DNA of 22,563 nucleotides from a virus: positions 1-22,563 of IMG/VR virus record IMGVR_UViG_3300013286_000063; one strand, 5' to 3'. Each line of letters starts with the position of its first letter. Positions within the stretch are counted from its first letter, which is position 1. Below the pieces are notes generated by a model, which was given only the letters and a program-made list of their open reading frames with translations, did not search any database and was not told the DNA's origin. A program made the translations under genes and the position numbers. Shown one piece after another: positions 20,026 through 22,563 of the stretch.

Positions 20026-20943
20026 TTATTCGGCAGGTTTCTCGGGCGGCTTTTTCGGCGGACTACCGAAGGTCTTGTCGCCGAGATCCAGCTTCGGCAG
20101 CAGGTCTATTGCCGTATTTCTCGGGCGGTTGATCGTCTGGTCGAGGTAGTGGTTCTTCGTGATGGCAGGATTGGAGTGGTCAAGCAGCTGCGTGGCGTCG
20201 CCTCCGGCTAGGGCGACGTAGCTGGCAGCACTTTTCCGCAGCCCGTGGAAGCCTCGGTTGGTAACGCCAGCACAGGTGCAGACGTTTCCGAAGTGGTGCC
20301 AGAGCGTCGTGCGGTTTCCGGCCCAAGGCCAGACAAGCTCGTCATCGTCTCGCCTCATCTGGTTCAACCACAAGCACTGCTCCTCGGAGATGGGCCGCAT
20401 GATGTCGCGGGTCTGCCCTTTCCGGTTCTCGGCCTGGAAGATGACCGTCCGCTGGAGCGTGTCCACGTCACGCCAACGGAGAGCCATGTGGCTGCCGATC
20501 CGCTCGGCTGTTTCCCAGCACGACCGGATGAGCGTCGGCATGAACACGTGCGGAGGCACCTGCGTTGGCCCGTAAGGCGGCTTTCGCCTCATGGCCTCTC
20601 TGAGTAGGGCTGACACGTCCTCGACCGTGTAGCCTCGCGGTATGCGTCCTGGTGCCTTCACCTGCGGCAGGGTTGGGAACTGCTCGACGTAGCGGCGTTT
20701 CGCACAGTACGACCAGATGGCAGAGATCTGGTTCCTGTCCTTCCGGGCTGTCGCCGCCTTCACGATCGCCCGTCTGTGGGCCACGTAAAGCTGCACCGTC
20801 AGGCTGTCGAGGTGGGCCAGCGTCGGCTCGGTGCCGAGTTGGTCAGCCCAACGCTTGAACGTCAGCCGGTATTGCCTGCGGCACTCCTCGGAATGGGCCG
20901 CGATCACTGCATATTCTTTCTCGTAGATGTCTCGGAGTAGCAT
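20026..20943 (-). CDS. int: Tyrosine recombinase / phage integrase
   Basis: Counting from the ATG at 20943-20941, the product is 305 residues. I prefer this start because AAAGG (complement of 20952-20956) lies eight bases upstream; an ATG two codons earlier is only two bases from it. The catalytic set is visible: Arg148 in ETAERIGSHMALRW, Lys175 in NRKGQ, His233-x-x-Arg236 in FHGLRKSAAS, His256 in LLDHSNPA and Tyr266 in NHYLD. Residues ~1-90 form the SAM-like core-binding domain (RQYRLTFKRWADQL). It catalyses integration at att. It points away from the early genes, and the 20-bp palindrome lies just upstream. The Lys/Pro-rich tail (SPPKKPPEKPAE) is an extension. Confidence 0.95.
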   Translation of the reverse strand: MLLRDIYEKEYAVIAAHSEECRRQYRLTFKRWADQLGTEPTLAHLDSLTVQLYVAHRRAIVKAATARKDRNQISAIWSYCAKRRYVEQFPTLPQVKAPGRIPRGYTVEDVSALLREAMRRKPPYGPTQVPPHVFMPTLIRSCWETAERIGSHMALRWRDVDTLQRTVIFQAENRKGQTRDIMRPISEEQCLWLNQMRRDDDELVWPWAGNRTTLWHHFGNVCTCAGVTNRGFHGLRKSAASYVALAGGDATQLLDHSNPAITKNHYLDQTINRPRNTAIDLLPKLDLGDKTFGSPPKKPPEKPAE

Positions 20944-20982
20944 GGTCATCGCCTTTCAGATCTCGGTTGGGATTTGGGCACC

Positions 20983-21088: not shown

Positions 21089-21116
21089 TTGACTTGCGTT
21101 CCCGTATCGGTATCAT
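21089..21116 (+). promoter_or_regulatory. Early promoter A (TTGACT-N16-TATCAT)
   Basis: TTGACT (21089-21094) and TATCAT (21111-21116) are separated by 16 bases. The spacer holds the repeated operator (GTTCCCGTATCGG). The predicted transcription start is at about 21122-21124, exactly on an ATG (21124), so the message may be leaderless. Confidence 0.6.
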
Positions 21117-21123
21117 TGGGAGC

Positions 21124-21363
21124 ATGATCGCCACAATGAAAAACGACCGAGGCCGGAAAATGCTGTCGTGCCGCGACGCTGCTGAGGAATACGGCTGCTC
21201 TATGCGCTACATCAGGCGGTTGGTCGAGGACGGCAAACTTTCGCATGAGACGGTTGGCGGTGGCTATTTTGTGCCAGCCGAGGAAGTGGCCGCGCTGAAA
21301 TCGCAGGTTGCCAAGGGCACAGGGCGACACAAACCCAAGGCGGCAAAGTTCAGCCAAGGCTGA
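21124..21363 (+). CDS. Excisionase-like helix-turn-helix protein
   Basis: The core LSCRDAAEEYGCSMRYIRRL followed by VEDGKLSHETVGGGYFVPAE is the typical HTH unit of excisionase/MerR-like small DNA-binding proteins: 'DAAxxYGxSxxYIRRLVxxGKL...Y.V'. It should bind DNA and either direct excision with the integrase or regulate early genes. The start is uncertain. A GTG at 21046 would put promoter A inside the gene, so I favour ATG 21124 at the predicted transcription start; ATG 21136 or ATG 21160 (eight bases after GAGG 21148-21151) are alternatives. From 21124 it is 79 residues, with a basic tail (KGTGRHKPKAAKF). Confidence 0.75.
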   Translation: MIATMKNDRGRKMLSCRDAAEEYGCSMRYIRRLVEDGKLSHETVGGGYFVPAEEVAALKSQVAKGTGRHKPKAAKFSQG

Positions 21364-21370
21364 AACCACG

Positions 21371-21406
21371 CTTTTCTGACGGGAAATCTCACGGAAAAGA
21401 TTTTTT
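21371..21406 (+). terminator. Weak candidate terminator after the HTH gene
   Basis: CTTTTC (21371-21376) can pair with GAAAAG (21394-21399), and six T residues follow at 21401-21406. The stem is only six base pairs and AT-rich with a long loop, so this is a weak terminator; its place between the HTH stop and promoter B is suitable. Confidence 0.3.
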
Positions 21407-21417
21407 CTTATCTCCCC

Positions 21418-21445
21418 TTGCTATTGGTTCCGATATGGGTATCAT
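21418..21445 (+). promoter_or_regulatory. Early promoter B (TTGCTA-N16-TATCAT)
   Basis: TTGCTA (21418-21423), 16 bases, TATCAT (21440-21445). The spacer (TTGGTTCCGATATGGG) matches promoter A at most positions, and the match continues through TATCATTGGGG up to an ATG at 21452, which again coincides with the predicted transcription start. Confidence 0.65.
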
Positions 21446-21502
21446 TGGGGCATGCGAGCAAGTGAGACTCGCGGACCGGCCTCCACAAGCAAGGGGAAGG
21501 CA

Positions 21503-21820
21503 ATGACAATCGAAGACGAACTTGAAAACGAAGCAGCATCCGTTGACCGGCATCTTGCCGCCCTTGCCGCAATTTCTGCGGCGCTGGCAGGTTGGGACGT
21601 CGAAAGCAAGTACGTTGCCAAGCGAGGCAGCGTATACGCCACGTTGGTCTCCACTTGCGAATCGCAGTACATCACAAAACTTCGCATAGCTGACCACGAA
21701 GAAACGTCTGATCAACATGCCGCCGCTGATCTCACACTGCTTGTTGGTAAAGACGGCACTGCCGACATAGCAGGCGTTGTCGCCGCGATCATCTCAATGG
21801 AAGACGGCGGCACTTATTAG
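21503..21820 (+). CDS. Small early protein, unknown
   Basis: ATG 21503 follows AAGGGGAAGG (21491-21500), so I favour it; an in-frame ATG at 21452 sits at the predicted transcription start of promoter B and would give 17 extra residues (MRASETRGPASTSKGKA). From 21503 the product is 105 residues, acidic at the N-terminus (TIEDELENEAASVDRHLAAL) with a helix, then beta-like segments (SVYATLVSTCESQYITKLRI) and DLTLLVGKDGTADIAGVVAA. No family was recognised. It belongs to the early control region. Confidence 0.6.
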   Translation: MTIEDELENEAASVDRHLAALAAISAALAGWDVESKYVAKRGSVYATLVSTCESQYITKLRIADHEETSDQHAAADLTLLVGKDGTADIAGVVAAIISMEDGGTY

Positions 21821-21848
21821 GATTCTTCCGGCCGAGGAGGGCCACGCG

Positions 21849-21992
21849 ATGAAACGCCACCTCGACAAGCTGATTCAAGCGTTGGTGTTCATCCGGTTGG
21901 GCCAGCAACTCGGCACCGACAGCGACCTCGCACAAGCAGTCGCTCACGGTATTGATCTCGTTGTTTCTACGATCACCCGTTTCTTTGGTTGA
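21849..21992 (+). CDS. Small early protein, 47 residues
   Basis: ATG 21849 lies eight bases after a strong GAGGAGG (21834-21840), which fixes the start; in-frame ATG/GTG codons upstream lack it. The product is KRHLDKLIQALVFIRLGQQL then TDSDLAQAVAHGIDLVVSTI and TRFFG, a short amphipathic helical protein with a possible membrane-interacting end. No family was recognised. It lies 28 bases after the previous gene, in the same probable transcript from promoter B, and its last codons contain the start of promoter C. Confidence 0.55.
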   Translation: MKRHLDKLIQALVFIRLGQQLGTDSDLAQAVAHGIDLVVSTITRFFG

Positions 21993-22017
21993 CTATTGGT
22001 TCCGATTTAGGTACACC
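21989..22017 (+). promoter_or_regulatory. Early promoter-like element C
   Basis: TTGACT (21989-21994), overlapping the stop of the 47-residue gene, followed at 17 bases by TACACC (22012-22017). The spacer is TTGGTTCCGATTTAGG, clearly related to promoter B. The -10 is poor, so this could be an operator copy rather than an active promoter. No gene starts at its expected start point; the next gene begins 170 bases downstream. Confidence 0.45.
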
Positions 22018-22026
22018 CTCGCACAA

Positions 22027-22047
22027 TTGATTCCGATTCCGGAACAC
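22027..22047 (+). repeat. Operator-like copy D, in tandem with C
   Basis: TTGATTCCGATTCCGGAACA at 22027-22046 (plus C at 22047) matches the C copy (21996-22016) at 17 of 21 positions, and the two are spaced 31 bases apart, close to three helical turns. It lacks promoter boxes of its own. Confidence 0.5.
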
Positions 22048-22133
22048 GCAGGCATCGGGATGGCACAAGTGGTGTGCAGATTTTCAACAAATACAAACCG
22101 CTCCACAGCTTGTTTTCCAGCACTTTTGGACGA

Positions 22134-22161
22134 TTGACTGCGGACTGATCGTTTGTACAGT
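22134..22161 (+). promoter_or_regulatory. Promoter E before the last gene (TTGACT-N16-TACAGT)
   Basis: TTGACT (22134-22139), 16 bases, TACAGT (22156-22161). The -10 region lies in TGTACAGTAC (22154-22163), the same ten bases as in the core of the palindrome at 21016-21035, so the same regulator may bind here. A transcript would start about 20 bases before the next gene. Confidence 0.55.
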
Positions 22162-22187
22162 ACGCCTAACACCAAGGAGAGATGGAA

Positions 22188-22439
22188 ATGGATTCACACG
22201 CTGCTGAATACGCCGGTGCGATCGCTGGCATGACCGAGACCTACGGCACCCGTCGAGCCGTTGACACGTTTGCCATCGGCGACCACGTGAACTTCCGGCT
22301 GGCGAACTGGTCGCCTCGCTCATACGAGGACGGCAGAGTCATCAGCCACAACCACGGCAAGCTCATCGTTGAGACCGCCGGAGACCTCTTTGAGGTAGAT
22401 CCCAAGCCGTGGCCGGAGGGCAACGTGCTGCCTTTTTGA
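22188..22439 (+). CDS. Small early protein, unknown
   Basis: AAGGAGA (22174-22180) lies eight bases before ATG 22188 and only two before ATG 22182, so I prefer 22188. The product is 83 residues: a helical start (DSHAAEYAGAIAGMTETYG), then FAIGDHVNFRLANWSPRSYE and DGRVISHNHGKLIVETAGDL and FEVDPKPW. The second part looks like a small SH3-like beta-barrel ('GDHVNFR...DGRVI...L.V...G..FEV'). No family was recognised. It should be under promoter E, just upstream. Confidence 0.65.
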   Translation: MDSHAAEYAGAIAGMTETYGTRRAVDTFAIGDHVNFRLANWSPRSYEDGRVISHNHGKLIVETAGDLFEVDPKPWPEGNVLPF

Positions 22440-22563
22440 TTGCCGCTCACGGGCGAAACGACAAATGCCACCTGGGGGGGGGGGGGGGGGCAAAAAAGGG
22501 GGGGTTGGGCGGGGGGGGAGGAGGGGACACATTTGCCCCCAAACAGGGGATCCCCCACACAAA
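22440..22563. other. G-homopolymer end sequence, probable artefact
   Basis: After the last gene the sequence contains a run of 17 G at 22474-22490, then 7 G at 22498-22504 and more G-rich blocks up to the end. No gene is present. Such G runs at the end of an assembled sequence are a common result of poor read ends in two-colour sequencing, so these bases should not be interpreted biologically. Confidence 0.7.

Follow-up and report, generated by a model that had tools for sequence, protein, structure and literature searches.

A putative excisionase-fold repressor with cognate palindromic operators in the early control region of uncultivated temperate phages

The early region described here probably functions in the early control (immunity) of a temperate phage; in it, a 79-aa winged-HTH (wHTH) protein would act as the repressor on cognate palindromic operators, the gene and its operators being swapped between phages as heteroimmunity cassettes. 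The window, that is, the whole stretch of DNA analysed, is a 22.6-kb IMG/VR virus record from an uncultivated phage. A repeat found four times in its early region (sites A–D) very probably represents the operators of this exchangeable early-control module, as judged from the window and its relatives.

Sites A–D, their promoters and neighbouring genes

The features of the region are as follows.

20026..20949, minus strand: tyrosine recombinase (integrase); Pfam PF00589, E = 5e-10; PHROG integrase, 2e-26
21089..21116, plus strand: promoter PA; -35 TTGACT at 21089-21094, 16-bp spacer, -10 TATCAT at 21111-21116
21099..21112, plus strand: putative operator A, TTCCCGTATCGGTA, within the PA spacer
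21124..21363, plus strand: Xis-like winged-HTH gene, 79 aa; HTH_17, excisionase PHROGs; proposed repressor
21393..21409, plus strand: A/T-rich, UP-element-like tract GGAAAAGATTTTTTCTT, upstream of PB
21418..21445, plus strand: promoter PB; -35 TTGCTA at 21418-21423, 16-bp spacer, -10 TATCAT at 21440-21445
21428..21441, plus strand: putative operator B, TTCCGATATGGGTA, within the PB spacer
21453..21473, plus strand: 5'-leader RNA hairpin of the PB transcript, UGCGAG-caagugaga-CUCGCG
21503..21820, plus strand: PB-driven gene, 105 aa, variable between relatives, preceded by SD-like GGGGAAGG
21849..21992, plus strand: gene for a conserved 47-aa protein, with homologues in relatives
21989..22017, plus strand: promoter PC; -35 TTGACT at 21989-21994, weak -10
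22000..22013, plus strand: putative operator C, TTCCGATTTAGGTA
22031..22044, plus strand: putative operator D, TTCCGATTCCGGAA, 31 bp from C
22134..22161, plus strand: candidate promoter of the 85-aa-gene operon, TTGACT-N16-TACAGT
22182..22439, plus strand: conserved 85-aa early gene, with homologues in relatives

A preliminary description, made from the window alone, had located four related sites sharing a core, with C and D in tandem 31 bp apart and D lacking -35 and -10 boxes; these positions and this arrangement agreed with the sequence. The element common to A–D is a 14-bp imperfect palindrome, TTCCSRTWTSGGWA. The full 18-mer is exact at B only, with two mismatches at C and, as judged by eye, about five at A and at D. 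We built a position weight matrix (PWM) from class-1 relatives only, excluding the window, and scored both strands of the 22.6 kb with it. Sites B (22.5 bits), A (21.4 bits), C (16.8 bits) and D (16.4 bits) took the top four positions, and the fifth-best position reached 9.5 bits; 0.02 sites as good as A–D would be expected by chance in Markov-1 sequence. The four related sites are thus real.

At A, B and C the palindrome sits within the 16–17 bp spacer of a sigma70-type promoter. The PA layout, TTGACN-N16/17-TANNNT, recurs in relatives, and the PB layout is likewise conserved. The A/T-rich tract upstream of PB, which is conserved in L001-L007, L010 and L011, may function in the manner of an UP element. 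At C the preliminary description had recognized the site but overlooked its -35 box. The -10 candidates of PC are GTACAC (22011-22016) and TACACC (22012-22017), and L011 has a better box, TACAGT after a 16-bp spacer. Most relatives carry tandem C/D sites, and in G001, G002 and G004 a TTGACA promoter adjoins operator D.

The exact B 18-mer occurs in seven IMG/VR viral contigs in the same context, always after GAAAAGATTTTTTCT...CCCTTGC and followed by a small gene led by a Shine-Dalgarno sequence (SD). When the motif was looked for in related phages, the core was found to be kept at the early-region promoters of class-1 relatives, with the HTH gene between A and B, and C and/or D further along. 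Across whole relative records of 20–39 kb, nearly all operator matches fell in the early region; G004 had one weak, two-mismatch match outside it. DNA and protein searches found no useful relative among isolated phages, and a scan of genome contigs gave no credible integrated prophage or host, its matches being a distant one in Oceanobacillus and one to a 3.4-kb MAG contig from Lake Lanier that had been binned as Alphaproteobacteria.

The window stops at a long poly-G run (22475-22530), ahead of the region where relatives encode a LexA-like gene. G004 terminates at this gene position, where G001 carries a poly-C run; probably the contig broke at a homopolymer tract, or the poly-G is a sequencing artefact. 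Nearly every long relative carries, a few kb downstream, a gene for a stand-alone LexA DNA-binding domain (LexA-DBD) of roughly 70–95 aa without a peptidase domain, which was not found in L078 and L116. Such a LexA-DBD-only protein was encoded in 10 of the 10 relatives searched, at the following places.

G001:24439-24618: LexA-DBD gene
G002:23164-23352: LexA-DBD gene
G004, G006-G009 and G011-G013: LexA-DBD genes

The wHTH protein and the covariation of its gene with the operators

The product of the gene between A and B matched HTH_17 (PF12728, E = 1.6e-6) and no other Pfam domain above cut-off, and its PHROG matches were excisionase/RDF profiles (phrog_66, 4e-6; 7506; 1840). A profile of the wHTH alignment matched Pukovnik Xis (PDB 4J2N, E = 4.6e-5). 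The AlphaFold model was of moderate confidence (pLDDT 77), and its top Foldseek matches were RacA, Pukovnik Xis and BldC, with probabilities of 0.97–1.00 and E values of only 0.03–0.1; none of the fold matches of this model had E < 0.001. The MerR-related folds MtaN and HiNmlR were also among them. The 79-aa product is therefore predicted to be an excisionase-fold (Xis/HTH_17) protein. A lambda-type CI, which needs HTH_3 and an S24 autoprotease, was rejected on the length of 79 aa and the Pfam result of HTH_17 only.

An integrase profile brought in 80 loci, which together with the class-1 set gave 31 non-redundant HTH types (<90% identity). These 31 uncultivated phages retain one arrangement, in which an integrase gene that diverges from the early region is followed by A, the wHTH gene, B and C/D, and the spacer that holds the operator at A and B is 16–17 bp in all representatives. 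Their operators belong to at least nine sequence families, assigned by eye. The repeat had been seen correctly in the preliminary description, which overlooked that it is one of many interchangeable operator types. Among phages with close integrases, the corresponding places are taken by CTAACGNNNNCGTTAG-type sites in L014 and L016 and by TCTAACGCCGNCGCTAG-type sites in L017 and L018, and the HTH gene differs in each case. When positions 21800-22250 of the window were compared with L014, L016 and L017, the flanks of C/D were conserved and the operators differed by class (2 or 3). A single sample, 3300027741, holds different operator classes (class 2 in L014, class 3 in L017 and L044).

Operator distance was correlated with wHTH distance (Mantel r = 0.504, p = 1e-4, n = 31; Mantel p-values are from permutation of phages, with phylogeny not modelled), and the correlation was practically unchanged with the integrase controlled (r = 0.508). 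No correlation was found between operator distance and integrase distance (Mantel r = 0.04, p = 0.20, n = 31), and neither the 47-aa gene (r = 0.06) nor the 85-aa gene (r = -0.01) tracked operator type in Mantel tests. About 14 phage pairs have near-identical integrases together with unrelated wHTH proteins and different operators. Part of the covariation at A and B could be linkage, because both adjoin the wHTH gene. The C/D sites lie about 0.6–0.9 kb away and are usually two, 21–34 bp apart. The C/D region matched the B operator of its own phage at 14.5/18, versus 10.9/18 for other classes (permutation p = 1e-4 for the own-class match, n = 24). C/D are the independent evidence for the covariation of operators and wHTH (n = 24). 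The A operators matched B at 11.7/18, versus 14.5/18 for C/D, and are thus more degenerate.

L019 (3300027963_004279) is a recombinant that has a class-2-like A operator before a class-3 wHTH gene and a class-3 B operator, which suggests a breakpoint between A and the wHTH gene. Because of this combination, A is less strictly matched to the wHTH protein than B is.

The proposal that one regulator controls several early genes is well supported by these comparisons: the same palindrome lies in the A, B and C promoter spacers of class-1 relatives, hardly occurs outside the early region, and covaries with the very HTH gene that had been named as a candidate. Such covariation of early-promoter operators with the repressor gene across relatives is what characterizes an immunity repressor.

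The wHTH protein could instead be chiefly an excisionase (RDF) that doubles as a regulator, with a separate immunity repressor elsewhere and the operators engaged in lytic feedback. Its best family matches, given above, are excisionases/RDFs, its gene adjoins and diverges from the integrase gene, dual roles are known for Apl and XisF (PMC7498355, PMC7379572), and, the window ending at 22.5 kb, a separate cI-like gene could lie elsewhere in the phage. We nevertheless regard this as unlikely. One would expect an RDF to be matched to the recombinase or the site with which it works, whereas the wHTH type was uncorrelated with the integrase, the partner that was compared (Mantel r = -0.07). The sites of the A–D type, on which this comparison rests, are dyads in promoter spacers and not direct repeats one turn apart, and no other regulator tested covaries with the operators. 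The decoupling of the wHTH protein from the integrase and the palindromic form of its presumed sites argue for a repressor rather than a phage excisionase.

Binding of the operators by the LexA-DBD protein of the relatives, or by host LexA (SOS control), is highly improbable. LexA-type proteins bind palindromes. The presence of a LexA-DBD-only protein in all of the relatives searched would fit such binding, for which the GIL01 LexA homologue is a precedent (PMC6182141). However, LexA-DBD similarity did not track operator type (Mantel r = -0.06, p = 0.66, n = 12), whereas wHTH did in the same 12 phages (r = 0.36, p = 0.015); L098 and L107 have their LexA-DBD in common and differ in wHTH and operator; and a host regulator cannot account for the replacement of all sites along with the phage wHTH gene. 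The LexA-DBD was rejected as the operator binder for this lack of covariation.

Whether the regulator represses or activates had been left undecided. MerR-activated promoters have 19–20 bp spacers. A MerR-type activator that untwists its promoters, as the operator position between -35 and -10 and the fold relationship to MerR (MtaN, HiNmlR) might suggest, can hardly be credited for a 79-aa protein without an effector or coiled-coil domain and was rejected on the spacer length of 16–17 bp, which favours a repressor.

Gene starts downstream of PA and PB

An ATG had been noted where transcription should start at both A and B, and leaderless mRNAs had been proposed for both; the geometry holds at both sites, but conservation of the gene start supports the proposal for A and speaks against it for B. 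At A, the ATG at 21124 lies 7 nt past the -10 box of PA. The wHTH homologues were taken from profile hits without promoter information, and removal of the weak, unrelated L083 and L084 from the 66 hits left 64. The ATG lies 6–7 nt past the -10 box in 61 of them, the exceptions being L082 and L089, where it lies 10 nt past, and L104, which is without this layout. Met1 is invariant (28/28), and later Met codons (Met3/Met4) are variable. These results support a leaderless wHTH mRNA that would start at or beside AUG 21124. The conserved distance from -10 to AUG gives A the geometry reported for lambda cI and PaaR2; the cI and paaR2 mRNAs have been described as leaderless (PMC8630535).

Most of the 31 relatives have the PB leader hairpin at this position, its stem 5–8 bp long and its loop of 9 nt similar to CRANUGAGA; an SD, for example CCGGAGACGAAACGATG, comes after it. 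Its stem covaries: 98.6% of cells are paired, 13 cells are changed on both sides, and none of 500 shuffles scored as high. A leaderless start at B would use the ATG at 21452, which lies 6 nt past the -10 box and, in the window, in frame with 21503. This is very unlikely, since an ATG stands at that position in only 12 of the 31 relatives, often out of frame, an SD-led start lies 28–84 nt downstream in 30/31, and the position overlaps the conserved, covarying hairpin. Leaderless translation of B was rejected on these three points, and the PB gene most likely starts at 21503 in the window.

The hairpin occurs mainly where a variable gene follows B and is missing from L007, L071 and L074, in which the 47-aa gene comes straight after B. 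The genes between B and the 47-aa gene vary from phage to phage (21503-21820 in the window; L014, L016-L018), and GC-rich hairpins such as CCCGCTGGCAACNGGGCCAGCGGGC separate them; L018 has one that resembles a DNA methyltransferase gene. These genes are possibly cargo or anti-defence cassettes.

Proposed immunity switch and comparison with known systems

In the switch that we propose, a wHTH dimer would bind the palindromic operator in three promoters, namely that of the wHTH gene itself (A), that of a variable early gene (B) and the one that drives the main early operon (C), and D would allow tandem binding with C, about three helical turns away. Against this reading count the fact that proteins of this fold (Xis, BldC, RacA) are known mostly to bind direct repeats in head-to-tail order and not palindromes, the degenerate A sites and the mixed operator classes of L019. 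By occupying the -35/-10 spacer, the homodimer would exclude RNA polymerase from PA, PB and PC, which would silence the early operon in the lysogen and limit the level of the wHTH protein itself. The A operators are less B-like than those of C/D, so the repressor gene may be less tightly repressed. The wHTH mRNA would begin at or beside its AUG and be translated leaderless, like lambda cI from PRM. Over the relatives, the wHTH gene and its operators would have evolved jointly toward many specificities and changed hands as matched sets, a pattern that heteroimmunity would produce. That the protein physically binds the sites, dimerises, represses and confers immunity, and where transcription starts, we infer from the comparisons above.

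More tentatively, an excisionase-fold protein of about 80 aa, made from a leaderless mRNA, may be the sole immunity repressor in a large group of uncultivated temperate phages, with at least nine coevolving families of palindromic operators, exchange as matched cassettes, and distant operators rewritten in place. Among the papers searched, no excisionase-fold or winged-helix heteroimmunity repressor was found, which is weak evidence of novelty. If true, this would bring an excisionase-fold repressor into the range of known phage immunity systems. It would also place a conserved leaderless layout of the repressor gene outside the lambdoid phages, in a group without a cultured member in the searched collections, and the 31 natural protein–operator pairs could serve to decipher how this winged-helix family recognizes DNA.

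The proposed switch resembles the lambda CI/OR/OL/PRM system in having an autoregulated repressor, tandem palindromic operators at early promoters, heteroimmune relatives and a (putatively) leaderless repressor mRNA. It differs in that the wHTH protein consists of one Xis-fold domain (about 80 aa) without HTH_3 or an autoprotease domain, the operators lie in the -35/-10 spacer of each promoter, and no Cro partner was identified. The LexA homologue encoded by GIL01 regulates promoters of the phage and activates lytic genes (PMC6182141); the LexA-DBD gene downstream in the relatives is similar to it, but its product is not the protein that matches the operators here.

Among small excisionase-type winged-HTH proteins, 186 Apl, P2 Cox and Pf4 XisF share with the wHTH protein a gene beside the integrase and regulation of early promoters, the latter being proposed here. 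Apl and Cox bind direct repeats, and Apl, Cox and XisF work alongside an immunity repressor that is a different protein (PMC7498355, PMC7379572), whereas the sites here are palindromic and the wHTH protein is decoupled from the integrase. Xis of mycobacteriophage Pukovnik (4J2N) is the closest solved relative by profile and is among the top fold matches, but it is a dedicated excisionase. The mycobacteriophage stoperator system likewise has one repressor with many cognate sites; that repressor is monomeric and its sites are asymmetric and genome-wide (PMC9283540), whereas the system proposed here has three to four palindromic sites confined to early promoters.
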